IMG/VR virus record: IMGVR_UViG_3300005827_000082
Location: 1-24,407 of that record
Length of the DNA stretch: 24,407 bases
Direction: 5' to 3' (one strand)
Origin: a virus
A program made the translations under genes and the position numbers. Of the stretch, positions 7,278 through 18,795 are shown piece by piece; the stretch's first letter is position 1, and the number at the start of each line of letters is the position of its first letter. The notes beneath the pieces are model-generated. The model worked only from the letters and a program-made list of their open reading frames with translations, did not search any database and was not told the origin of the DNA.

Positions 7278-7940
7278 TCAATAAATCTCCTCATACATTC
7301 TGTTCTCTACTATTTTTCCTGAAACAAAATGGTTTATATTCCAGTCCGTATTTCTGTCTTCTGAGAACCATTTATCAATCACAATTTTCCAACTCTCTAC
7401 ATCTAAGTCCCATTCGCAGTTAGATATTAATTCCTTAACCCTAGATGAGTTTGATTCACTTAGTCTAGGGTGGTTTCTACCCGTTTTTTCTTTATAAGAC
7501 AAAAAGTAATGGGATGTTACCTCACCAATCCATAAAGGAATGGGAGCAAGAACATTCTTAAATGTTCCATTATCATTATTATTATCTTTTATCTTATTAT
7601 CTTTATCTGATACTGCAGTATCATTCCGACTGATACCACGGTATCCTTCGGGGCACGGTTTTTGCTTGTTTATAAACCTTATTTTCCCTCCATCGGCTTT
7701 TATTTTGTATTTTATTTCTACGTATCCAAAGAATTTACACCGAAGTAAGGCTTTAGATATTCCCTTTTCGGATACACTAAACATCTCTGCTAGCTTTTGG
7801 TTAGAAAAATAGAACTGCCTCCCACTATATGTGTGTATAAATCCCAACAACTCCATTTGTAATCGACTCAACCTCCTATCCTTATACAGCCATCTCGGTA
7901 TTACTAAGTAATTCAAATCGAAAGATGTTATTTCTTTCAT
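7278..7940 (-). CDS. Helix-turn-helix protein resembling phage/plasmid replication organisers
   Basis: 220 residues. Residues 8-75 look like a winged helix-turn-helix of the HTH_36/replication-organiser type: an opening FDLNYLVIPRWLY, a helix RRLSRLQMELLGFI, then SNQKLAEMFSVSEKGISKAL as the DNA-reading unit. An Asn/Asp-rich linker (about 113-124, KIKDNNNDNGT) separates it from a helical C-terminal domain ending NTDWNINHFVSGKIVENRMYEE, a pattern seen at the end of phage replication proteins. No DnaA/helicase motif is present. It lies among virion genes, which is out of place for a replication gene, and could instead be a regulator. Its ATG immediately follows the U-tract of a terminator-like hairpin and has no SD, so expression is probably low or conditional. 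Confidence 0.65.
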   Translation of the reverse strand: MKEITSFDLNYLVIPRWLYKDRRLSRLQMELLGFIHTYSGRQFYFSNQKLAEMFSVSEKGISKALLRCKFFGYVEIKYKIKADGGKIRFINKQKPCPEGYRGISRNDTAVSDKDNKIKDNNNDNGTFKNVLAPIPLWIGEVTSHYFLSYKEKTGRNHPRLSESNSSRVKELISNCEWDLDVESWKIVIDKWFSEDRNTDWNINHFVSGKIVENRMYEEIY

Positions 7941-8068: not shown

Positions 8069-9226
8069 TTACTGAAGATCCCTACCAAACAGGTCTTTCT
8101 TCTTGGTGTAGTCAATATTACCTGTCATTTGAGTACCAGTGCTAGCTAAGATTGAGGGTCCCATTGTGAGTGATGTTAAAGGATTGGTTGTGGTATTAGC
8201 TGAATAGTTTTGAGCTAAGCCTAGTCCTGCATTTGCGTTGGTATTAAAGTTATTGGTTGCGTCGCCCACTAAGGAGTTGAATTGACTTGTTACTTGCTGT
8301 TTAGCGTTTTCTGACTGTAATTGAAGCTGGAAAGTCTGGTTTCTTAAATCTTGTAAGGCTTGAAGTCTTAAATTAGCTTTATTCTCACCAGCACTAGCTT
8401 TCATTTGCTGAATCTGTAACATTTTGTCATCGAAGTCTGCTTTAGCGGCTCTTAATTGGGAGTTCTTTTGTTCTTCTAGTGAAGCGATTGAGGATTGGTA
8501 CTTAGTTTCAAGATCTGCCCGTTGCTGTTGAATTTGTTGATTGGTTTGAGTTAAACCTTGTTCTGCTTGAGCGTTTGACCTTTGGAACTCACGACCTGTT
8601 AACTCGTTATATGCCTGACCTGCACTGGAAGCTCCACCGAATCTTTGCTGACCGCCCATTGATAATTCGTTGAACAATCTTCGTGCAGCGTTTACTACAT
8701 CCATTTTTCTTTGCTGAGCAGTATTTTCTGCTCCTGTAAGTTGGCCTTGAGCCGTACCATAAGCACCTTGAAGATTCTTATTACTCAAATCATAAGCACC
8801 CTGAATATCTTGCTGTACTCCTGGATAGGCATTGTTAAGATTTGATTCTGCCTTATTAGCTACTCCCATGCTTTCGTTATAAGCGTTTTGAATCTCATTC
8901 ATTAAGGCAGCGTTTGGGTCTGCTTGTTGAGGTGCGGGGTTAGAGGGAGCTGGGTTACTGTTTTTAACAGGATTGTTGTTCGTATTGTTAACTACTGGAG
9001 CGTTGTATCCAGGGTTACTTACTGGGTTTTGAACTGGTCCTTGAACAACTTGTCCCGAGTAATTGGGACTAACCGTAGTACCTACAGGAAGAACTGTGTT
9101 ATTTGTCCATTGACTCATTTGTGGACTGACAATAGATGCGTTAGCGGGTCCAACTCCTAGTTTTTCAGAGATACCAAAGTCTGGTAAATTGAATCCTCCG
9201 ATATTCCATAATCCTTGTGTGGGCAT
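8069..9226 (-). CDS. Gln/Asn-rich coiled-coil virion protein
   Basis: 385 residues from MPTQGLWNIGGFNLPDFG. I chose this ATG (9226), not one 13 codons earlier, because it follows the stop of the small gene upstream by one base (TAATATG) and the extra residues would be that gene's tail read in another frame. After about residue 60 comes a Pro/Asn-rich linker (90-115). From 120 to 300 there is a long Ala/Gln/Glu-rich helical region with heptad-like spacing (for example QRADLETKYQSSIASLEEQK) and Gly-Ala repeats near 155-180 (QGAYDLSNKNLQGAYGTAQG). No enzyme motif is seen. In short-tailed phages, genes of this composition beside the nozzle and the large internal protein encode internal core or ejection proteins; that role is inferred. 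It is followed by a terminator. Confidence 0.7.
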   Translation of the reverse strand: MPTQGLWNIGGFNLPDFGISEKLGVGPANASIVSPQMSQWTNNTVLPVGTTVSPNYSGQVVQGPVQNPVSNPGYNAPVVNNTNNNPVKNSNPAPSNPAPQQADPNAALMNEIQNAYNESMGVANKAESNLNNAYPGVQQDIQGAYDLSNKNLQGAYGTAQGQLTGAENTAQQRKMDVVNAARRLFNELSMGGQQRFGGASSAGQAYNELTGREFQRSNAQAEQGLTQTNQQIQQQRADLETKYQSSIASLEEQKNSQLRAAKADFDDKMLQIQQMKASAGENKANLRLQALQDLRNQTFQLQLQSENAKQQVTSQFNSLVGDATNNFNTNANAGLGLAQNYSANTTTNPLTSLTMGPSILASTGTQMTGNIDYTKKKDLFGRDLQ

Positions 9227-9227
9227 A

Positions 9228-9377
9228 TTATTTTTTCTTTTTAGATTTTGATAAAGCAATTGCAATTATTTGGTTTCTTGATCTTGGTTTACCGTTAGCA
9301 CCACGAGCTTTTCCTTTCTTCTTATTATCTGCATACAGTTCTTTAAAATTCTTCTTTATGTTCTTTGTGATTGGCAT
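9228..9377 (-). CDS. Small basic DUF6496-like protein, 49 aa
   Basis: Begins MPITKNIKKNFKELYADNKK and ends KSKKKK. The segment NGKPRSRNQIIAIALSKSKK matches the DUF6496-type signature 'V.NRKQAIAIALSEA' of small basic proteins common in phages and bacteria; the family role is unknown. One third of the residues are Lys or Arg, which suggests nucleic-acid binding. The stop precedes the ATG of the coiled-coil gene by one base. Upstream is a 38-base gap with a candidate promoter so close that the transcript would be nearly leaderless. A gene this short is easily missed, but the family motif and exact junction with the next gene make it likely. Confidence 0.72.
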   Translation of the reverse strand: MPITKNIKKNFKELYADNKKKGKARGANGKPRSRNQIIAIALSKSKKKK

Positions 9378-9386
9378 AATCTGTAA

Positions 9387-9414
9387 TGTATATAAGTATT
9401 GTTTAGGTTTTCAA
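9387..9414 (-). promoter_or_regulatory. Candidate sigma70-like promoter upstream of the DUF6496-like gene
   Basis: TTGAAA (9414-9409), a 16-base spacer, then TATACA (9392-9387). This is the only gap between the nozzle gene and the small basic gene. Predicted initiation near 9380 would leave almost no leader before the ATG at 9377. The boxes are partial matches in AT-rich DNA, so this is tentative. Confidence 0.3.
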
Positions 9415-9415
9415 G

Positions 9416-11278
9416 CTAGGCCCTCTGTGAACTCGAGAGTATGCCCCTTGAGCCTGGTTGAGCTGTCATCTTAATTGCTAATAGCTCAAAGTTGGAATTA
9501 TTCTCGTTACTAATAACTTGAATCTGGAACTGTCTTGATTGCTTAAACAGTGAACCCCATTTAGTTAGTTCGTCCCCTGCGGTTACTGAGGTTGTTGATT
9601 TAGATAGACCCCATTTAGTAGATCCCCACGGACTCATACCCCATCCTGTAAAGCCTGATGTTTCAGAACCTAAAATAGTGAATGTCTTGGGAGTATATGT
9701 AACTCCGTTACGATCTTCGGCTACGATATTAACCGTTGTAGACCCCGAGATGGCCCTAAAAAGCACGTAGAAGTATTGCAAGATATAAAGCTTAGTCCAG
9801 TCGTTAAAAGACTCTTTCTTGGTCTTCAAAGACTTAATAATAGTGGCTCCATTGTCTGAATTAACCGATGCTTCAAAAGTATAAACCTGATTATCTTCAT
9901 AAGACCCAATTACCCATCTTTCGGTCCCTGTAGGATCTATATACTTCATCATTTTAGAAATTCCGAAAGGTAACTGCCAAATTCCTAGGAATGCGCCTCT
10001 TTCTCGGTCGTAAGCAATCATCTGTTTACGTCTTGGGAATGAAATTATGTATTTATTGTCTACATAGAAAGCATTGGCCGTGTTGTAGTCTTCTTCATTT
10101 AACAAAGCTAGGTACGGTCTGATCTTTGCACTAATTTCATTTGTTCTTAGAATGTTTAAGAAATTAGGCTCGTATCCTGTGACGTAAATACCATTTCTGC
10201 CAAAATAGAAAGTATCATTCTCAACCGTACAGATTGTGTTTTTATTTGCGGCACCTACACTTGTACTTATTGGTGCATATTGAGGATCTAGGACTGAGAA
10301 ATTACCTATACTAATAACAGAAAGTTCAACTGCGTAGGATGATCTTTGTTTGTAAACCACAATACGATCTGCAATAGGCTGAACTGCAATACCCACTATT
10401 TTGTCACCAGAATCAGGGTCTATGTAGATATACCCCCCACCGTATGTCCATGAGAATTTGGTTTGATTGGGGAATCTTCCCGAAATCATTAACTTATTAG
10501 GATCATCTGCGGGAACAATTAGCAGTCTGTCCTTGTATTTGACAATAATATCTGACTTAACCCCACCTGTTGTATTAGCTAAAGGAGGTTCAATTGATTC
10601 ACTTGCTGGTTCGCCACGATCTGTATAAGCAGTAGTTCCTACCGGGGACGACGCAAGGTACGTTTCGTCACCTTCCGAACCCCTGTAGATCTCATATCCA
10701 GATAGTGATAATGCGGAGGGAGCTGTCCACGCGAGATTAACTTGGGTCCTTGTAAGGTCCGACGGAAGATTAGATAGTACATAATTAGTTGATGGTGTTG
10801 TTTGGCCTCCATTTTCTCCTACAGCGACTACTTTCCAACTAACACGGTTAGTTCCTGAAGCTCCTGAAAAGTTAGTGGCCGTTAATCCTGTTGGTGGTGA
10901 AATTGTAGCAAAAACTGATAAATCCGTACCATCGTATTCAGTAAAGGTTACATCTTCACTCACTATGTACGTTTTACCTCCTAGTTGTTCGGCCATCATG
11001 GTAGAACCAGACGGCCAAGACTGCCCCGTGATAACTGATGATCCTGTGCCGTTTTTCTTAACTAAATATCCTTGATCTGATAAAGCTAGTAATTCGTTAG
11101 TCGTACCATCATTTGTTTTATACGTTCCTAAGCCCCTGACCGTGCCTGTAGCTCCAACAGAAAAGTACGTAGAGGTTCCCCAGCGACCTGTAGGCGTTCC
11201 CTTACCTACAAGCATCAAATTATTCATTTCAGCTAGTTCTTCGTTATCAAGTTCTGTGGGTCTAAGTAACATGTTCAC
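9416..11278 (-). CDS. Tail nozzle / stabilisation-like protein with an FN3-like domain
   Basis: 620 residues counted from the GTG at 11278; ATG follows two codons later. Residues about 15-55 (ELAEMNNLMLVGKGTPTGRWG) match the 'N....N.... G....R.G' opening of short-tailed-phage nozzle or stabilisation proteins (P22 gp10 / T7 gp12 type). Residues about 125-225 form an FN3-like beta-sandwich (SPPTGLTATN, then VNLAWTAPSALSLSGYEIYRG). Beta-propeller-like strands follow (KDRLLIVPADDPNKLMISGR, then VGIAVQPIADRIVVYKQRSS). The reading frame stays open upstream back to the stop of the adaptor gene and looks coding, so the true start may be 27 or more codons earlier at a rare start codon (see 11279-11365). 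It ends in TAG. Assignment as tail nozzle rests on fold pattern and position after the adaptor. Confidence 0.75.
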   Translation of the reverse strand: MNMLLRPTELDNEELAEMNNLMLVGKGTPTGRWGTSTYFSVGATGTVRGLGTYKTNDGTTNELLALSDQGYLVKKNGTGSSVITGQSWPSGSTMMAEQLGGKTYIVSEDVTFTEYDGTDLSVFATISPPTGLTATNFSGASGTNRVSWKVVAVGENGGQTTPSTNYVLSNLPSDLTRTQVNLAWTAPSALSLSGYEIYRGSEGDETYLASSPVGTTAYTDRGEPASESIEPPLANTTGGVKSDIIVKYKDRLLIVPADDPNKLMISGRFPNQTKFSWTYGGGYIYIDPDSGDKIVGIAVQPIADRIVVYKQRSSYAVELSVISIGNFSVLDPQYAPISTSVGAANKNTICTVENDTFYFGRNGIYVTGYEPNFLNILRTNEISAKIRPYLALLNEEDYNTANAFYVDNKYIISFPRRKQMIAYDRERGAFLGIWQLPFGISKMMKYIDPTGTERWVIGSYEDNQVYTFEASVNSDNGATIIKSLKTKKESFNDWTKLYILQYFYVLFRAISGSTTVNIVAEDRNGVTYTPKTFTILGSETSGFTGWGMSPWGSTKWGLSKSTTSVTAGDELTKWGSLFKQSRQFQIQVISNENNSNFELLAIKMTAQPGSRGILSSSQRA

Positions 11279-11365: not shown

Positions 11366-12010
11366 TTAAGATAGGTTTGCTAATGGATTATTGAATTTCG
11401 ACTTAGTATCTCTGTTTGGTTGCGATCCTTTAGACGCTCTACCAAGCATGTTAGAAAGCGAAGTCTGTGCTCGTTGTTCTGCGATTGAGAATCTATCATC
11501 TGATCTTGAATAGAGAACATAAGACTCGATTTTCCTAACAACATACTGAGGATCGCTTAGTTCACATTTATCAGTTAAGGTTAAAAGACCATTAGGGAAT
11601 CTTTGATAAAGAACCGAAAGTGTAGCCCCGATAATTGGACTAGAGAAAATCATGTTATAGCCGTTATCTGCGTCACCTAAAACGTAGCAATATCTTTCTC
11701 CACTACCTTTTGAGTATTTTTCTTCTGCTTCTATAACTTCAAACTCTGTCCATCCTGAACCATCCCACATCTGAGGATTCTGCATAATCTCACGAAAGTT
11801 AGCTTGCATTGGCACTGTAGCACTATTAGAAAGCCCCACCATGTATTCTGATTTAAACTCTTGGAACTGTCCTAAGGCAGAAGCGTCCCAAATAGCTTGG
11901 TCTGCGTAGTTCTTTCTAGTTTCCAGTTCTGATCCTGTTGGTAAACTTGTCTCTAGATCGAGAATACTATTTGCGTCCAGCAATATTTGATTAAGTGTCT
12001 TTTGTGCCAT
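11366..12010 (-). CDS. Head-tail adaptor / tail tube-A-like connector protein
   Basis: 214 residues. The N-terminus (KTLNQILLDANSILDLETSL, then GSELETRKNYADQAIWDAS) and the helical C-terminal part (PQYVVRKIESYVLYSRSDDR) fit the mostly helical head-tail adaptors below the portal in short-tailed phages (P22 gp4 / T7 gp11 type). The fold is inferred from pattern and order, not a strong motif. The middle has beta-rich segments (WTEFEVIEAEEKYSKGSGER). It directly precedes the nozzle-like gene in the same frame, separated by TAA and 87 bases. A 32-base gap separates it from the glycosyltransferase gene upstream; a weak SD-like AGGGG lies two bases before the ATG. Confidence 0.65.
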   Translation of the reverse strand: MAQKTLNQILLDANSILDLETSLPTGSELETRKNYADQAIWDASALGQFQEFKSEYMVGLSNSATVPMQANFREIMQNPQMWDGSGWTEFEVIEAEEKYSKGSGERYCYVLGDADNGYNMIFSSPIIGATLSVLYQRFPNGLLTLTDKCELSDPQYVVRKIESYVLYSRSDDRFSIAEQRAQTSLSNMLGRASKGSQPNRDTKSKFNNPLANLS

Positions 12011-12042: not shown

Positions 12043-12684
12043 TCAATCTATCTCCCAGTTTACGTTAGGAGCTATGCACCCTACAACCAAATGTGTCGCA
12101 AAACTAGGCACAGGATTGTGCATTCTTAGTCCCATTTCATTCCTTAAATACTCAAACATTGGATGGTCTGATATTCCAAACCTTAACATTGTAGTCATGG
12201 TCTTTTTAGCTACTTCGTTACGCATGGCAAAGGTTAAGGTATTACTAGGAGCTTCTCGATATGTTCTGTTGCCTATTAGTTTCATTTCATAGTGTTTATC
12301 AAACCTTTCTTCTAAGTAATGTCCGGGGTGGTCGTAAGGCGAGAGAAAATCAAGCTCCTTAACCGCTTCTTTCATATACTTAAACGTATCAGGCACCCAT
12401 AAGTAGTCATCTTCAACAAAAAATACATCATCCTCGGTGTCATTGCACATTTCTATCTGTTTGTGGAAAGTTCCTACGTTTCCCAAGCCTGTGCAATCAA
12501 TGATTTCTCCGTATGGTTCAAATAAGCTCTGATCATCATACGAGTCTAGTAAAAAGATTATTTTCTCAGGCTTCGTGTCTAGGAAAGACTCTAAACATAG
12601 TTTTGTTTGGGTGTACTTGTCACACTTGAGGGGTGATGGGTTCCCTGACTTGAATGGTGCGGCTCTATAAAATGTGGTTAGCAT
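12043..12684 (-). CDS. GT-A type glycosyltransferase with VEDDY motif
   Basis: 213 residues. Residues 87-95 (VFFVEDDYL) hold an acidic E-D-D metal/nucleotide-sugar motif after a hydrophobic strand, as in GT-A glycosyltransferases. SPYDHPGHY (about 115-123) downstream is a combination I associate with phage-encoded sugar transferases ('FVEDDYL.R.G ... YDHPDKY'). The N-terminus (MLTTFYRAAP) and EKIIFLLDSYDD strand fit the start of the fold. Donor and acceptor cannot be told from the sequence. It overlaps the preceding glycosyltransferase by seven bases and is the last gene of the cassette. The protein lacks a membrane anchor and is likely cytoplasmic. It could decorate virion proteins or a host glycan. 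Confidence 0.72.
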   Translation of the reverse strand: MLTTFYRAAPFKSGNPSPLKCDKYTQTKLCLESFLDTKPEKIIFLLDSYDDQSLFEPYGEIIDCTGLGNVGTFHKQIEMCNDTEDDVFFVEDDYLWVPDTFKYMKEAVKELDFLSPYDHPGHYLEERFDKHYEMKLIGNRTYREAPSNTLTFAMRNEVAKKTMTTMLRFGISDHPMFEYLRNEMGLRMHNPVPSFATHLVVGCIAPNVNWEID

Positions 12685-13250
12685 GATGGGTCTGTAATCG
12701 GGTCAAATACCTCACGCCCCCACTTTTCTATAAATAAATCTCTGTCTTGGTTTTGGATTTCATTAGTATATGACTTCATAGTTCTCCCTGGATCGTTGTG
12801 TTGAACATTAACGCCATAATTTATACCCACTGGTATTCCTAGGCGTTTTAACCTCATGGCATACGAGCTGTCTGAGTAGTAGATGTGAAAATCCTCCTCA
12901 AATCTACCAACTTTGTCCCAAACTTCTTTATCCATGCACCAAATATGTGCGTGAAAGACCTTAAACACCCCGTTGTTGACCGTTGGACTAACAACTTGAC
13001 CTTCTACACACAAATCTCTTAACGAACCTTTGTCTAAGATAACATCATCGTTACTTACACATACAAAATCAGCTCCCATACCAAAAGCTAGTTCGATACA
13101 TTGGTTCCAAGCGTCAGGAAGTGATGGTTGTTTACCAGCAAGTATTATCAGTTCATCCTGTTGATTGCTAAATGAGTTTATACATTTTTGTAGAACTTCA
13201 CGCTTCTGGGGATCGCTCTCGTAGTAAGGGATGACGGTTATTAGTTTCAT
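12678..13250 (-). CDS. Glycosyltransferase family 2-like protein
   Basis: 190 residues. The opening MKLITVIPYY is the first strand of a GT2 fold, QPSLPDAWNQCIELAFGMGA precedes the central strand, and FVCVSNDDVIL (62-72) carries the D68-D69 metal-binding motif. The segment HAHIWCMDKEVWDKVGRFEE followed by DFHIYYSDSSYAMRLKRLG matches the acceptor-side region of GT2 enzymes, with the conserved acidic residues where the base Asp is expected. It is shorter than typical GT2 enzymes (220-300), essentially a bare catalytic core. It overlaps both neighbours (4 and 7 bases). The sugar specificity is not visible. Confidence 0.8.
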   Translation of the reverse strand: MKLITVIPYYESDPQKREVLQKCINSFSNQQDELIILAGKQPSLPDAWNQCIELAFGMGADFVCVSNDDVILDKGSLRDLCVEGQVVSPTVNNGVFKVFHAHIWCMDKEVWDKVGRFEEDFHIYYSDSSYAMRLKRLGIPVGINYGVNVQHNDPGRTMKSYTNEIQNQDRDLFIEKWGREVFDPITDPSC

Positions 13251-13618
13251 TTTCTTTTTTTCTTTTTAGTCCAGATTTCTAATATATCTCTACACTTTCC
13301 AGCTAACCAGTCTTGGTAATAGGCAAATACTTCCTTGGTTGAATCTTCTAGCGACATTCCTCGATCTCTAAGTATCTCAAAAGTAATGTGATTAGTTTCG
13401 TGAACAATGGTGGTAAATCCGTATAAATCAAAGTGAATATGGTAGGTTTGCTCTTTATTGTCCTCTATCAATGTTTCGCTATATGCTCCCCAGTGATCGG
13501 ATAGTTCTTGTTCTTCGTATTTGTTTCTTTCATAAAACTTGTTCATCTCCTGAATAGGACCAAGAGTAACAATAATCCTAGCTCTAAACACTGGATCAAA
13601 GATTGTTTTTGATCTCAT
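13247..13618 (-). CDS. Small HExxH zinc metallopeptidase-like protein
   Basis: 123 residues. Residues 73-77 are HETNH in TTIVHETNHITFEILRDRG, an HExxH zinc site in a helix, and E96 in STKEVFAYYQDWL lies 19 residues later in a second helix, the arrangement of gluzincin-like metallopeptidases. The N-terminal half (FDPVFRARIIVTLGP) is beta-like and may form the edge strand. The C-terminus ends in a basic KKKKRK run. It is about the minimum size for this fold, so it could be a degraded enzyme or a metal-binding structural protein. Similar phage proteins are of unknown function. It lies between the cytidylyltransferase and a glycosyltransferase with ATGA overlaps on both sides, which ties it to the glycan cassette. 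Confidence 0.6.
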   Translation of the reverse strand: MRSKTIFDPVFRARIIVTLGPIQEMNKFYERNKYEEQELSDHWGAYSETLIEDNKEQTYHIHFDLYGFTTIVHETNHITFEILRDRGMSLEDSTKEVFAYYQDWLAGKCRDILEIWTKKKKRK

Positions 13619-14115
13619 TTAGATAGTTCTATTACTCTTTTCTTAATATTAGTTGTTGATATACCACCAATACGAGGTATAAAAACAACTTTCATCTTAT
13701 GTTCTTCTAGCCATTCAGGTGTAAAGTCCATCTGCTTGCAATACTTATCAAATGTGTAGTCATCCCCAACGACGATAAAATCAGGATTAAATTTGAGTAA
13801 CATTGGTTTTGAGTCTGCACCCGATTCGTTTACGACTACCAAGTCAACCATTCTCATCGCTCCAATTACTCTCATACGATCCTCAAGTGGCATGATTGGA
13901 CGTTTGCCCTTAAATCTCTCGACAAATTCATCAGTATTGAGAGCTACAACTAAAAAGTCACACATAGACTTAGCTTGTTCGAGTAAATAAACGTGTCCAG
14001 CGTGGGGAATATCCATTGTGGAACCAACGTATGCAATAACAGGTTTTGGTTCGAGTTCTTTATCTCGGGATCTCTCGTAATAGTAGTTATTGTGTGCGGC
14101 CTGTTCTTTACTCAT
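13615..14115 (-). CDS. TagD/RfaE-like cytidylyltransferase-fold nucleotidyltransferase
   Basis: 166 residues. HAGH at 38-41 follows the strand VIAYVGSTMD and is the HxGH nucleotide-binding signature; ISTTNIKKR at 152-160 is the second signature (ISTTxIK) of glycerol-3-phosphate cytidylyltransferase and relatives. Between them, FLVVALNTDEF and DFIVVGDDYTF occupy the expected strands. Such enzymes join CTP (or ATP) to a phosphorylated polyol or sugar, giving for example CDP-glycerol. About 24 residues precede the usual start (EQAAHNNYYYERSRDKE); no internal Met offers a better start, so the extension seems real. No CDP-glycerol polymerase of the TagB/TagF kind is in the window. The substrate is inferred only by family. 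The start overlaps the previous stop by eight bases. Confidence 0.85.
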   Translation of the reverse strand: MSKEQAAHNNYYYERSRDKELEPKPVIAYVGSTMDIPHAGHVYLLEQAKSMCDFLVVALNTDEFVERFKGKRPIMPLEDRMRVIGAMRMVDLVVVNESGADSKPMLLKFNPDFIVVGDDYTFDKYCKQMDFTPEWLEEHKMKVVFIPRIGGISTTNIKKRVIELSK

Positions 14116-15619
14116 AGTCTTTCCATGTTTTAACTATTTCATCAGTGTTTTCTTGAATCCACTGTGACATATTCTCGTCTGTTACCTCTTTTGGAAGATC
14201 GTATTTCAAAACAATTGAATCATCAATCTTTTCATCTCTAACTATTGGAAGTTTTCCAGATTCTATTTGATTAACTAGCCATTTGTATCTTGGAGGGTTA
14301 GCCATACGCTCTCTATTAAGAACATTCTCACCAGTCCTACCAACCACAGGCCAAATGTTTATACATTTAGCGATGTTAGTATCATCAACTAAGATTCTAT
14401 AACCTAGTTTTAGTGCCATGTATCCGATAATAGTGTTATCGTATCCGATCCCAAAATCCAAACATTCCCAAAAACCATTGCACGCATCCAAAATAGTTCT
14501 AGGAATAGCTCCGTAATTAGCCTCGTAATCATAAGGATTTTCTGATTCTCTTATGCCTTGGTTCAAACATCTAGGGTTTGACCATGACTTTTTAGTCATT
14601 ATGTTAGTCTCACCATTCCACCAATCTTCTTTGTTATTCTTATCAGCTTCTATGGCGTTAAAGTATTCATCCACAGGGGCTATTATTGCATCCGGGTTGT
14701 GTAAGTGAAGTGAAACAAGTCTTTCAATGGCGTTAGGATCTAAAAGAATAAAGTCCTGTAGCCAGACAAGTAATTCACCCTTAGATTGTTTCCAGCCGAT
14801 GTTATTAGCTCTTACCAATCCACAAGGTCGTTTGTAAGTTCCTAAAGCTTTATCACCACGAATGTACTTAATGTCTAAGTTGTATTTCTCAGCGTATTTT
14901 TTGGCTATTTCTGTTCGATCTTCTTTGTAATCATCGACTATTACCCACTCAAAGTTTTTATATACCTGATGAGATAGATTCTCGGCCATTAGGTTCCACC
15001 ATCCAGTTCTTATCGTTGGTGTGATTATGCTAACAAGTGGGTAGTCTGATTCTTCTCTAAATACTAAGTCCCAAGAAGATGCAATTTTGTCCCACGAATA
15101 TGACTTAGCAAATTCAATACCTTTTTTAGATTCTGCTTCCCACAATTCTTTGTTACCCATCATCTCGAGCAAGGCTTTTAAATAGGCATCCTTGCCTTCT
15201 GGGGTATTAATATCAGCATCTACCTTGATACCTGAACCCACTGTTTCCTTTAAGGCTGCTTTACTCATAACTACAGGGACAATGCCATCAGACTGTGCTT
15301 CTATAGCCCCAATCATAAATATCTCATCAAAATAGGTTGGATACGCGAGTATGCCGTGTTCTTTCCTCATCTCTCTCAACTTATCTTGACCAACTTTACC
15401 ATAATGAGTTATTCCATCTTGTTGCATTAGCATTTCTACGGATTTCTTCCACTGTCTGCGTTCAGGGTTAGATTCAGCCATGATGTCGAAGTTACCCCAA
15501 CCGTAGCAAATTGAAAGCTCTGCATCAGGAAACACTTTTTTAATATCAGACCACATAAATAGAAGCATGTCTAAACCGCGATCGTACGAACTCTGCCACC
15601 AAAGTTTGTGTTGTTTCAT
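14108..15619 (-). CDS. GT4 C-terminal half fused to a GT2 glycosyltransferase
   Basis: 503 residues. Residues 1-185 are the C-terminal, donor-binding Rossmann half of a GT4 enzyme: QSSYDRGLDMLL, a GKVGQDKL helix, then AYPTYFDEIFMIGAIEAQ with the E99-x7-E107 motif. The protein begins where the N-terminal half, encoded at the end of the upstream gene, stops. From about residue 194 a GT2 domain follows: PLVSIITPTIRTGWWNLMAE, EWVIVDDYKEDRT, and VWLQDF (285-290) in the usual DXD position. The last 100 residues are unassigned and probably close the fold. Its ATG overlaps the previous stop by four bases. The two halves probably assemble, or a frameshift joins them. Product and sugar unknown. Confidence 0.85.
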   Translation of the reverse strand: MKQHKLWWQSSYDRGLDMLLFMWSDIKKVFPDAELSICYGWGNFDIMAESNPERRQWKKSVEMLMQQDGITHYGKVGQDKLREMRKEHGILAYPTYFDEIFMIGAIEAQSDGIVPVVMSKAALKETVGSGIKVDADINTPEGKDAYLKALLEMMGNKELWEAESKKGIEFAKSYSWDKIASSWDLVFREESDYPLVSIITPTIRTGWWNLMAENLSHQVYKNFEWVIVDDYKEDRTEIAKKYAEKYNLDIKYIRGDKALGTYKRPCGLVRANNIGWKQSKGELLVWLQDFILLDPNAIERLVSLHLHNPDAIIAPVDEYFNAIEADKNNKEDWWNGETNIMTKKSWSNPRCLNQGIRESENPYDYEANYGAIPRTILDACNGFWECLDFGIGYDNTIIGYMALKLGYRILVDDTNIAKCINIWPVVGRTGENVLNRERMANPPRYKWLVNQIESGKLPIVRDEKIDDSIVLKYDLPKEVTDENMSQWIQENTDEIVKTWKDYE

Positions 15620-17388
15620 AGTGTTATGCCATTACCAATAATCGCAAATTTAGAATCAGGAAGTTTAGTATCGCACTCTCTGTGAAAGTTAGACTTAACC
15701 ATAATCTTGTCAAACGCATTGATGTTTTTAGTAAAACTTTGAGAAACCCATAGGTCGTGAAGGTCGATCAGATGCTTCCTTGAGTTTATGCTGTTGGTAA
15801 GCATATTATGTCTCCAGGATATAAAAATATTAAAGAAGTCGCGCCTATTAAACATGTAGTAAGGCATATAAAGCACGTCGTTGATCTTTTTAACAGTTCC
15901 GCAGTCACAATACACGGTTACATGATATCCAAGCTTCGACCATTCCTCAGAAAGTTTAATCACAGCCGTCTCTGATCCCCCCACCCCTTTTTTAATTGAA
16001 TCACCGTCCCATTTAAATAAATGATTACTTCCAAAAGTAGCATAATAACAAATCTCTTTCTCTCCCCAAATTCTAGGTTCTTTATATTTGTTATATGCAC
16101 TAACCGCAAACGGTAGCATCTGCATCTCGTTAGGCAGTGAAGTACACAGTTTAGGAATTAAGTCTTTCTTGCCTATTGATTCGTAATATTTCATCAATTT
16201 ATGAGCATTTTCTGAAGCTATGTCTAGTTCTTTTTGATCGTATAAGAAGTCCTCAGCATTTTGATTCTCTGGGGTGGGATTAAACTTATTTACAAGCACA
16301 GATGCTTCGTAAGCCTTGCGAATATCTTTCTTGCCATGAAGATTGAACTGTAGCATCAGTTCAGCAGACAACATTTTTAATTCAAGAATGTTTGATGGTT
16401 GCGCAGTCACTCCGACAGGTAAACTTAAACCAACTTTCATCCAGTGCTCCATCGCGGAATAGTTTTTAAGGTTATAGTAGCAACGCGCTAAATAAAGATA
16501 TGACAGTGGGTTAGTAGGATACTCCTCTAGGGCTTTGTGAGCCATCTTGACGGCAGTTACGTTGTCCCCTAACTTACCGTACGCTGTAGTCATTAAGTGA
16601 TAGCAAACACCTCTCTCTTGATCCCATCCAGAACGCTGTAAGTATTCACGTCCCATGTCGATTAGTTTTAATAGTGTTTCTTTGTCCCAAGACTCACCAT
16701 AGATTTTCATTAAGTACAAAAGAGTCCTTGGGTCAGCTTGTCCACCGTTTGATCTTTCGTCTTGTAAATCAAGTTCTAATATTTCTCTATTCCTAGCCAT
16801 TCTGGGAGCCATGTCAGTGTTAAATCTGTCGGCTTCGCAGTGCATCCAAGCAACAGGATGTTCATCACTATAAACGATCACCGAATGTTTAGATTTAGTA
16901 CCGTCTAAAGGCATTGGAGATTCATGTAGTCTTTTGTGCCACAGAAAAGCTCCTGGTTTTAACAATCTCTCTCTTTCCTGAGTAACTTCAATATCAATTA
17001 GATTTTTAAGTGAAGGTTCACCACTAAATGTGCATGAATACCAGTAATCAAAAAATACAGCATCTAAACCTTGAGCGTAAGCCTTAGTTGCTATATCTCT
17101 AATTTTATCTGCTCCAACAATCAAATCATCCCCATCTGCCCATAAAATGTAAGTAGTGTCTTTGGGTACTCTATTAAAATTAAAATTCCTTTGTTCTGAG
17201 AAGTTCTTATTCCAGGGTAAATAAGAAAAGTCATAGCCCATTTCCTTACACCACCTTTTTGTCTTAACGTGTTTATGGTTAGCTGTGATATGAACCGTAT
17301 CTACAGCAGGAAGCATTGACTCAACTGCTTTTTTAAGATTCTTTAACTCCTCATCCCCCTTAGTAATTAAGCATCCTGCTATCTTCAT
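15616..17388 (-). CDS. GT2-TPR glycosyltransferase ending in the N-terminal half of a GT4 domain
   Basis: 590 residues. Residues 1-200 form a GT2 domain of the SunS/TPR-associated type: AGCLITKGDEELKNLKKAVE, then ILWADGDDL (81-89) with the D85-x-D87 metal motif. Residues about 220-400 are tandem helical repeats (HLMTTAYGKLGDNVTAVKMA, then YPTNPLSYLYLARCYYNLKN), TPR-like. From about 445 the protein enters a GT4 N-terminal half, with GVGGSETAVIKLSEEW near 468-483, and stops at FAIIGNGITL, just where the inter-domain linker and C-terminal half should begin. The missing half opens the next gene. The start codon overlaps the previous TAA (TAATG). Such multi-domain enzymes build or modify glycans; the acceptor is unknown. 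Confidence 0.85.
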   Translation of the reverse strand: MKIAGCLITKGDEELKNLKKAVESMLPAVDTVHITANHKHVKTKRWCKEMGYDFSYLPWNKNFSEQRNFNFNRVPKDTTYILWADGDDLIVGADKIRDIATKAYAQGLDAVFFDYWYSCTFSGEPSLKNLIDIEVTQERERLLKPGAFLWHKRLHESPMPLDGTKSKHSVIVYSDEHPVAWMHCEADRFNTDMAPRMARNREILELDLQDERSNGGQADPRTLLYLMKIYGESWDKETLLKLIDMGREYLQRSGWDQERGVCYHLMTTAYGKLGDNVTAVKMAHKALEEYPTNPLSYLYLARCYYNLKNYSAMEHWMKVGLSLPVGVTAQPSNILELKMLSAELMLQFNLHGKKDIRKAYEASVLVNKFNPTPENQNAEDFLYDQKELDIASENAHKLMKYYESIGKKDLIPKLCTSLPNEMQMLPFAVSAYNKYKEPRIWGEKEICYYATFGSNHLFKWDGDSIKKGVGGSETAVIKLSEEWSKLGYHVTVYCDCGTVKKINDVLYMPYYMFNRRDFFNIFISWRHNMLTNSINSRKHLIDLHDLWVSQSFTKNINAFDKIMVKSNFHRECDTKLPDSKFAIIGNGITL

Positions 17389-17813
17389 TATATTTTGTTA
17401 ACGTATCTAAAAATTGGATAAAGTTGTGCCATTTTCATTGCGTTATCTCTCTGACAAGCATCAAACTTAGGAAATATTTTTTTCATCATTTCGTATACAA
17501 GTCCAGGATAAACAACAATTGATCTTCCTGTCTTTTGGGCTACTTGCTCACTGATACTCATTTCTGCATTTAAGTGTTCAGTTCTTCTTTGAAACCAAGT
17601 CTGGTAATCAAGTGGAGCAAGATCTTGCCAGATTGAGATCATAATGGTCATTAACTTCTGTCCTGTTTCGCTTAGTGGATTTTCTGGCTTACCCAACAAC
17701 TCATAGATGTCAACGAGTGCTTTAGTAGCTGAGACTGCTTCACCAGGGACTTCATCGTATTCTTCACCGTTGATTTTTATCACTATGTATATTTTAGCAC
17801 TTTCGTTTTTCAT
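17388..17813 (-). CDS. Phage protein of unknown function after the capsid gene
   Basis: 141 residues from MKNESAKIYIVIKINGEEYD. The open frame extends upstream into the capsid gene, but that part would overlap the capsid C-terminus by 134 bases and read through the terminator, so the ATG at 17813 is preferred. The N-terminus is a beta hairpin (KIYIVIKINGEEYDEV), the rest helical (ATKALVDIYELL, then ETGQKLMTIMISIWQDLAPL). No enzyme motif or membrane segment is recognised. The order capsid, terminator, small protein suggests a head or tail assembly protein made in lower amounts than capsid, but this is context only. Its ATG lies two bases after the T-run of the terminator and there is no SD. 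Confidence 0.6.
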   Translation of the reverse strand: MKNESAKIYIVIKINGEEYDEVPGEAVSATKALVDIYELLGKPENPLSETGQKLMTIMISIWQDLAPLDYQTWFQRRTEHLNAEMSISEQVAQKTGRSIVVYPGLVYEMMKKIFPKFDACQRDNAMKMAQLYPIFRYVNKI

Positions 17814-17815
17814 AC

Positions 17816-17840
17816 AAAAAGGACCCCCGAATGGGAGTCC
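17816..17840 (-). terminator. Intrinsic terminator after the major capsid gene
   Basis: On the minus strand 17840-17821 reads GGACTCCC, loop ATTC, GGGGGTCC: an eight-pair stem with one G-U, followed by TTTTT (17820-17816). It sits 25 bases after the capsid stop and two bases before the next ATG. Partial termination here would keep capsid mRNA abundant while downstream genes receive less, as T7 does after its capsid gene. Confidence 0.88.
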
Positions 17841-17865: not shown

Positions 17866-18795
17866 TTAAAGAGTGTTGGCGTATCCAACGCGTTTAACAG
17901 AGGCTCGTTCGTCATAGGACACCATAGTGTGTTCTGAGACGTAAGCTCCTGATGTTCTGTCACCATCCTTAGCGGCTTCTTCCCAATGTGGCTCTCCACT
18001 ATTGACCAAGAAAGCTAATTCAAAGAGTTCTTCTCTAATGCCTAGAACCTGAAGTGTTCCGACACCTTTGACGATATCTTTGTGTGCAAGGATTTTAACG
18101 GTTTGTCCTACTTCTGAATCGTATACACGAACTTCAGATGTAAGTCTCTTGTCCTCAGCTTTGACATTGCGAGTAAGGTTGGTACCAAAGGTAGCAACTC
18201 TACGCTTAATGACTACTGGAGCCAAAAGGGTATCCATTACATATCCTGAACCAACTCTGTCGTATGAATCCTGAACCATGTCATTCAAAGATGTTTCTGT
18301 GAATGATGTCCCAGTAGCCATAAGGGTTACGTTGGTACTAATACATTGAGAAATACCACTCATACCTCTAGCAACTCCTGAAGAACCAGCGGCGTATGTG
18401 CCGTTGACGTTTGCATATTCCATCTGTGATTTAAGGCGTTTAAGTGCTCTCTCTTTTTCTTTACCGAGGGCATCTTCACCTGTAACCATAGCGATAGAAG
18501 CTTTGGTACGAGATAAGCGGACAGTCTCGCTCAAAATAATAGTTTTGTTGCTGGATCGAGTCTCAGCAGTTAAGTCACCGTAGGAAAAAGCAGCACCTTC
18601 AATCTGACCAGTTGCACTCGTAGCTCTTGCATCATAGTACAAGTTCCACTCATGGGTCTGTTGCATTGCGGGCGAACCCTTACCTAGGTTGGACATGAGG
18701 TAGTTATCCTCATTTGGCGAAACGTCACGGAGAATATCCAAAAGGGATTCTCTCATTTCGTTTGAGCCGTTGTATGTGTCTTTTCCGAAGGCCAT
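17866..18795 (-). CDS. Major capsid protein, SU10/DUF5309-like (HK97-fold family)
   Basis: 309 residues. The N-terminal layout (ESLLDILRDVSPNEDNYLMS, then TTHEWN-like QQTHEWNLYYDARA, then EGAAFSYGDLT) matches the SU10 major capsid family (PF17236), including the conserved 'T.EW..D' and 'EG' motifs. The middle (TLLAPVVIKRRVATFGTNLT) and C-terminal parts fit the axial and peripheral domains of an HK97-like subunit. The length is normal for the family. Several hundred copies would form the shell. It follows the scaffold-like gene with 155 bases of leader between, a promoter and a terminator of its own. No SD precedes the ATG; the leader just upstream is A-rich (TTATAAACAACAA). Confidence 0.88.
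   Translation of the reverse strand: MAFGKDTYNGSNEMRESLLDILRDVSPNEDNYLMSNLGKGSPAMQQTHEWNLYYDARATSATGQIEGAAFSYGDLTAETRSSNKTIILSETVRLSRTKASIAMVTGEDALGKEKERALKRLKSQMEYANVNGTYAAGSSGVARGMSGISQCISTNVTLMATGTSFTETSLNDMVQDSYDRVGSGYVMDTLLAPVVIKRRVATFGTNLTRNVKAEDKRLTSEVRVYDSEVGQTVKILAHKDIVKGVGTLQVLGIREELFELAFLVNSGEPHWEEAAKDGDRTSGAYVSEHTMVSYDERASVKRVGYANTL

Follow-up and report, generated by a model that had tools for sequence, protein, structure and literature searches.

Two-subunit GT-B glycosyltransferases are known from Alg13/Alg14 and EpsE/EpsF, in which the active site lies between the subunits (PMC8993221). Soluble, cytoplasmic glycosylation of proteins is described for FlmG, where a TPR domain binds the acceptor (PMC7591256). 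In phages, gene fission that keeps function is represented by the split nrdA of phage Aeh1 and by gene 43A/43B, with homing endonuclease genes linked to the split (PMC2988022). Virion glycosylation has also been suggested for mycobacteriophages such as Maravista, for which two putative glycosyltransferases are named (PMC11256854). Two-polypeptide GT-B enzymes, function-keeping fission of phage genes and TPR-guided cytoplasmic protein glycosylation are each already known. A limited literature search found no paper on split GT-B enzymes in phages, and no description of a divided GT4 enzyme whose halves are each attached to a GT2 domain of their own.

Here we analyse a locus of an uncultured tailed phage, represented by a virus record from IMG/VR, a 24.4-kb fragment taken at its full length of 24,407 bases (the window). 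Comparison with relatives shows a core of two predicted proteins, GT2-TPR-GT4N and GT4C-GT2, in which each GT4 half sits on a polypeptide with a complete GT2 domain. As in Alg13/Alg14 and EpsE/EpsF, a GT-B enzyme is laid out as N- and C-domain polypeptides, and fused homologs exist (PMC8993221). Those pairs, however, are MurG/GT28 relatives that work at the membrane on lipid-linked sugars (PMC8993221), whereas the phage halves belong to GT4 (PF00534 type), lack membrane segments and are each fused to GT2. The likeness to FlmG is soluble cytoplasmic protein glycosylation with a TPR domain, which for the phage cassette we deduce from its genes; FlmG differs in its single-chain GT-B catalytic part and its flagellin acceptor (PMC7591256). 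As with nrdA and 43A/43B, a phage gene is divided into two polypeptides, whose joint working is proposed here (PMC2988022); unlike in those cases, the fission falls at a domain hinge, is found in most sampled relatives and leaves the C-half fused to another enzyme domain. Lastly, Maravista offers a parallel in phage-encoded glycosyltransferases that are thought to decorate the capsid, and its abstract mentions no split enzyme (PMC11256854).

Genomic context of the cassette

The cassette comprises six overlapping minus-strand ORFs (12043-17388), all intact in the ORF list, between the capsid gene and g141 on one side and a conserved 214-aa gene on the other (Table 1). From the g141 gene downward the overlaps measure 1, 4, 8, 4, 4 and 7 bases, and a 32-base gap separates the last cassette ORF from the 214-aa gene. 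An earlier note on this DNA had described six such genes with these overlaps, and its account is accurate. It also placed a glycan cassette inside the morphogenesis region; this placement is conserved, and relatives carry sugar-nucleotide genes in the same slot. The SU10-type capsid gene with the same cassette core behind it is found in dozens of independent contigs, and because of this recurrence the cassette is more than a chance arrangement. The gene-order comparison that the note proposed therefore finds the cassette present in relatives. The note's view that a six-gene cassette is unusual here does not hold, since related cassettes occupy the same site in relatives and are usual in this phage group.

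Table 1. Predicted features of the cassette region, with positions in the window.
Feature	Position	Strand	Remarks
Major capsid protein, SU10_MCP family	17866..18795	-	Upstream anchor; PF17236 6.7e-45, phrog_1328 3.4e-38
Terminator-like hairpin GGACTCCC-ATTC-GGGGGTCC + TTTTT	17821..17840	-	Capsid/g141 gap; pattern scan
g141, small protein, no function assigned	17388..17813	-	Directly upstream of cassette; ATG at 17813
590-aa protein: GT2 + TPR (residues 1-435) + GT4 GT-B N-terminal half (441-590)	15616..17388	-	
ATGA junction: 590-aa gene stop overlaps 503-aa gene start, at GT-B hinge	15616..15619	-	
503-aa protein, whole ORF	14108..15619	-	
GT4 GT-B C-terminal half, residues 1-188 of 503-aa protein	15056..15619	-	PF00534, structure match
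GT2 domain, about residues 190-503 of 503-aa protein, + stop codon	14108..15055	-	PF00535 3.9e-11
TagD/GCT-like cytidylyltransferase, 166 aa	13615..14115	-	PF01467 3.7e-18
HExxH protein, 123 aa, probably passenger	13247..13618	-	phrog_1365 7.4e-15
Small GT2 glycosyltransferase, 190 aa	12678..13250	-	GT2 structure profiles 5e-7
213-aa probable GT-A protein	12043..12684	-	Family invariants, weak SunS match
Conserved 214-aa structural-module gene behind cassette	11366..12010	-	Syntenic in relatives

The flanking genes show the following features. A 203-aa GTG ORF is a longer reading of g141, and homologs of g141 are found in at least 36 of the 77 relatives. The 214-aa gene is conserved and syntenic, as the note implied, whereas the name that it gave, head-tail adaptor, is assigned by position only; the product has no Pfam or PHROG match. 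Elsewhere in the window, a gene for a DnaD-like/replication-initiation protein (7278-7940; phrog_186, 9.8e-10) lies inside the late structural module.

A pattern scan detected a hairpin with a T-run at 17840-17821, between the capsid gene and g141. An equivalent hairpin stands behind the capsid gene in 42 of the 73 distinct loci tested (window included), compared with 0.4% of shuffles. The note had proposed coexpression of the cassette with the structural genes. The overlaps do join g141 to the cassette, but the hairpin means that coexpression with the capsid gene is not simple, and the predicted structure suggests that expression levels probably differ between capsid and cassette. In T7 a terminator follows the capsid gene, and we propose the same arrangement as a parallel. 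Separately, the capsid gene of one relative (L003, 1058-2845) is divided by an HNH-containing stretch, with the N-part fused in frame to the HNH and the C-part as the next ORF; this divided gene has no Rfam intron match.

Two halves of one GT4 enzyme

Profile searches and structure prediction, as the note had advised, were used to assign domains to the two large proteins. With Pfam and PHROGs, GT2, TPR and GT4 C-domains are recognised and the GT4 N-domain is matched weakly, and their order across the 590-aa and 503-aa proteins is unusual. In profile searches, the family of the 590-aa protein matches GmaR (3.6e-16) and SunS (1.9e-7). Its predicted model (pLDDT 90.7) matches SunS and ThuS at Z about 22, well ahead of all other matches, with SunS at Z 21.8 over residues 1-305; OGT is also matched, via the TPR part. 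SunS and ThuS are peptide S-glycosyltransferases. The likeness to SunS, ThuS and GmaR covers the GT2 domain and the TPR-like helical part; those enzymes stand alone, whereas the 590-aa unit is fused to half a GT-B enzyme. In the GT2 domain, Asp85, Asp87 and Asp88 are invariant in the family (a DxD-type motif), and the helical TPR-like part follows. The GT4 N-half contains an invariant GG-S-E (GG-x-E) loop formed by Gly468, Gly470, Gly471, Ser472 and Glu473. A profile search with this half alone found no match among PDB sequences, and no solved structure for it appears among the structure matches listed for the 590-aa model. Its assignment as a GT4 domain rests on sequence, namely the fused homologs, a weak PF13439 match (0.0021) and the conserved GG-S-E motif.

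The C-half, at the head of the 503-aa protein, matches PF00534 (Glycos_transf_1; 9.9e-6) and not the GT28/MurG-like family. In the predicted model (pLDDT 89.6), residues 1-184 overlay on the C-terminal halves of GT4 chains, residues 185-349 of PimA and 316-481 of SdgB (Z about 20), and also on the C-half of BshA (Z about 19-20 over the three). This half is a C-terminal Rossmann domain with a nucleotide-binding fold, in which Glu99, the first glutamate of EX7E, is invariant; the second varies as Glu, Asp or Gln, and is Lys in L004. Residues 190-503 match GT2 enzymes, including chondroitin polymerase, polypeptide GalNAc-transferases and RmlT, and this domain reads LQDF at the expected DxD site.

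The C-terminus of the 590-aa protein reads IIGNGITL and the N-terminus of the 503-aa protein MKQHKLWWQSSYDRGLD, so that the two termini lie on the two sides of the GT-B hinge, the junction falling two codons past the conserved NGI. In L026, a single 1080-aa ORF covers both proteins and is colinear with them across the junction: residues 1-570 align with the 590-aa protein up to NGI and residues 585-1075 with the 503-aa protein from its residue 4. Because both are colinear with this one ORF, a single GT4 enzyme is divided over two genes of the window. At the same position in phage MW202524, GT2-TPR-GT4 form one 770-aa chain that is followed by a separate GT2 gene, and the C-half of that chain is 36% identical to the 503-aa protein (E 3e-34). 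From these alignments, the tail of the 590-aa protein and the head of the 503-aa protein are the two halves of one GT4 GT-B enzyme and not independent enzymes. The usual one-polypeptide layout, which does not strictly define GT-B enzymes, is absent here, and the two-polypeptide layout is found. Thus the note was right about the domains of its two multi-domain glycosyltransferases, but not about their independence, as they share one GT-B enzyme.

The junction was measured in 52 split loci. The halves overlap by an ATGA-type junction in 19, the C-half starts inside the AAT-GGN codons for Asn-Gly in nine, and two show another overlap; in the others the halves are separated by a short gap (four), by 31-220 nt (seven) or by more than 220 nt (11). 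The intervening DNA includes a 47-aa hydrophobic peptide (L014), HNH-like ORFs recognised by motif (L102, L116 and L117; the ORF of L102 has no significant Pfam match) and a GroEL gene with an HExxH gene (L005 and L168). The contigs with GroEL between the halves form one phage group (L005 at 35151-39470, L162, L164, L166 and L168), and in most of them terL lies just upstream. Since overlaps, gaps and frames vary and whole genes can intervene, the halves are read as two polypeptides and not as a frameshift product. A programmed frameshift or other recoding, by which a single GT2-TPR-GT4-GT2 protein would be made, is hardly credible: such a chain does exist in fused form in L026, and the ATGA overlap of the window places the frames one base apart, but the relative frame of the halves is inconstant (29/16/7), a slippery heptamer occurs at only one of the 52 junctions, and more than 220 nt, whole genes included, separate the halves in 11 loci.

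Two further candidates for the junction were rejected. A group I intron is not indicated, as 11 loci gave no Rfam match, and neither is a split intein joining the halves, as the proteins stop at the hinge and carry no additional stretch of intein size. In L112 (6291-6602) and L134 (7575-8060), a partial start of the C-half gene (MKHHKLFWGSSYDR and MKNLKLFYGSSYDR, respectively) lies upstream of a complete restart, which suggests an insertion event at the SSYDR codons that regenerated the 5' end.

Distribution and conservation of the split

Relatives were collected by two alignment-based scans of IMG/VR and one of genome contigs, together with two phages-collection records, and were made distinct at 95% identity, giving 78 loci including the window. 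Alignment queries were needed; a scan of viral contigs with the single 590-aa sequence gave no match. The gene is split in 56 of the 78 distinct loci and fused in 22 (window included). In every case the division falls within the hinge, immediately after NG[IVL], a motif that reads SNPL in L127. Only two close matches came from the scan of genome contigs, each on a contig with phage structural genes, and the remaining matches are distant GT2 domains; a cellular origin was therefore rejected.

The invariant motifs are retained in both halves across the split loci. Where synonymous sites are not saturated, pairwise dN/dS is mostly 0.03-0.12, and three values reach 0.25-0.29, two of which come from one very close pair. 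In several loci the C-half is a stand-alone gene of 184-216 aa. These observations bear on the possibility that the split marks a decayed gene or an assembly error, with the GT4 activity lost and only two GT2 enzymes at work. L002 has a frameshift inside the GT4 N-half, as such decay would produce, but the same split recurs in 56 distinct loci with nearly all ORFs intact, both halves keep their motifs at low dN/dS, and the C-half persists as a separate gene; we regard decay as improbable. The L002 frameshift lies at about 10495, ahead of the hinge, and could be an assembly error.

The window lies inside a clade of 48 rows, all split (SH-aLRT 100). The split or fused state must change four times on the tree of the N part and three times on the trees of the C-half and of both together, and well-supported branches force at least three, two and two changes, respectively. 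The trees do not fix the root; given a fused ancestor, fission on more than one occasion explains them most simply, and re-fusion may also have occurred.

The remaining cassette genes

Many loci of relatives are truncated, so the positive gene counts among the 77 relatives are lower bounds: at least 37 carry the 190-aa gene, 34 the 213-aa gene and 12 the cytidylyltransferase gene. The note had named two GT-A enzymes. For the 190-aa protein this is borne out, as profile comparison places its family with GT2 structures (5e-7), whereas the 213-aa protein is weakly assigned as a probable GT-A enzyme, with a SunS match of 0.012, PF00535 in two of 12 members and invariant Glu91, Asp93 and Tyr94. The TagD-like cytidylyltransferase that the note proposed is confirmed by its Pfam match (Table 1). 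Against the PDB, it matches both the glycerol-3-phosphate enzyme GCT (1coz, 9.9e-18) and the ethanolamine-phosphate enzyme ECT (3elb, 1.9e-23).

The 123-aa protein contains HETNH, in line with the HExxH motif noted earlier, and belongs to phrog_1365, a family with no assigned function. It has no PDB match and no similarity to the 96-aa HExxH protein of MW202497, and its gene is found in none of the 77 relatives. A role in the cassette is thus not upheld, and the gene is probably a passenger private to the window. In the same slot, relatives carry genes for an NAD epimerase, a DegT aminotransferase, a CgeB-type glycosyltransferase and a methyltransferase, as expected of a glycan pathway that exchanges its sugars while the core stays. 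The DegT-type aminotransferase of the L018 cassette (8456-10408) is interrupted by an intein (Hint_2, 3.8e-9; Intein_splicing, 3.8e-7).

Proposed function

Our preferred reading, held with moderate confidence, is a phage-borne cytoplasmic protein-glycosylation cassette in which the halves of the divided GT4 associate and a virion protein would be the acceptor. Cytoplasmic glycosylation of a phage protein is proposed because of the match to SunS, ThuS and GmaR and because the cassette proteins of the window have no membrane segment. The GT2-TPR part would begin the glycan by attaching a sugar to a phage protein, for which a capsid-associated or tail structural protein is the likeliest candidate; this role is suggested because SunS/ThuS and flagellin transferases act in this way on their substrates. 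The GT4 halves would then come together around a cleft that holds a single active site, which would require the two gene products to associate in a multi-enzyme complex. This complex, the trailing GT2 domain and the 190- and 213-aa enzymes may lengthen the protein-bound glycan, with the cytidylyltransferase supplying the activated donor. The association of the halves, their activity, the donor, the acceptor and the glycan are all inferred here. As for the split, its most likely source is a fused ancestral gene that was divided at the hinge, either because a start codon arose at or close to the Asn-Gly codons (AAT GGN contains an ATG out of frame) or because an endonuclease gene was inserted.

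The note had left the target between decoration of the virion and remodelling of the host surface. By gene position and enzyme type a virion protein is most likely the acceptor, and the SunS/ThuS/GmaR-type TPR enzyme and the lack of membrane segments make the virion the better option, although GT2 domains of this type could serve non-virion acceptors. Many phage glycosyltransferases modify the host surface, and action there, for superinfection exclusion or receptor masking, is the main rival. Besides this general precedent, the C-half and GT2 folds resemble, among others, the wall-teichoic-acid enzymes TarM, TarP and RmlT, and the cytidylyltransferase is GCT/TagD-like. Nevertheless, we consider it unlikely: the proteins lack a membrane segment, the ORFs inspected include no recognisable flippase, polymerase or lipid-phosphate transferase, the first enzyme best matches peptide and protein S- and O-glycosyltransferases, and the cassette sits in the late module.

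Other phage glycosyltransferases act on modified DNA bases, such as the T4 alpha- and beta-glucosyltransferases. Such a role has this precedent in its favour, and base-modification genes could sit outside the incomplete window. It is highly improbable here, as no hydroxymethylase or other base-modification family was matched among the window proteins tested, the TPR part and the similarity to SunS and GmaR indicate a protein acceptor, and the cassette holds several glycosyltransferases, with sugar-remodelling genes in relatives.

Within the preferred reading of virion-protein glycosylation, the two proteins may form an obligate machine, in which the GT4 site exists only on docking, the split holds the pathway on the acceptor and fission arose more than once; we give this extension an even chance.

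Implications

If the halves work together, phages would possess a natural split GT4 enzyme, and with it a system in which to study the tolerance of GT-B enzymes to fission and from which to engineer two-part glycosyltransferases. The locus also provides a gene signature for phages whose virions are likely to be decorated with sugars, and it offers a testable account of how the cassette stays together as its sugar genes are swapped. If the obligate complex is real, the enzyme split would itself serve to hold the pathway together on the acceptor.
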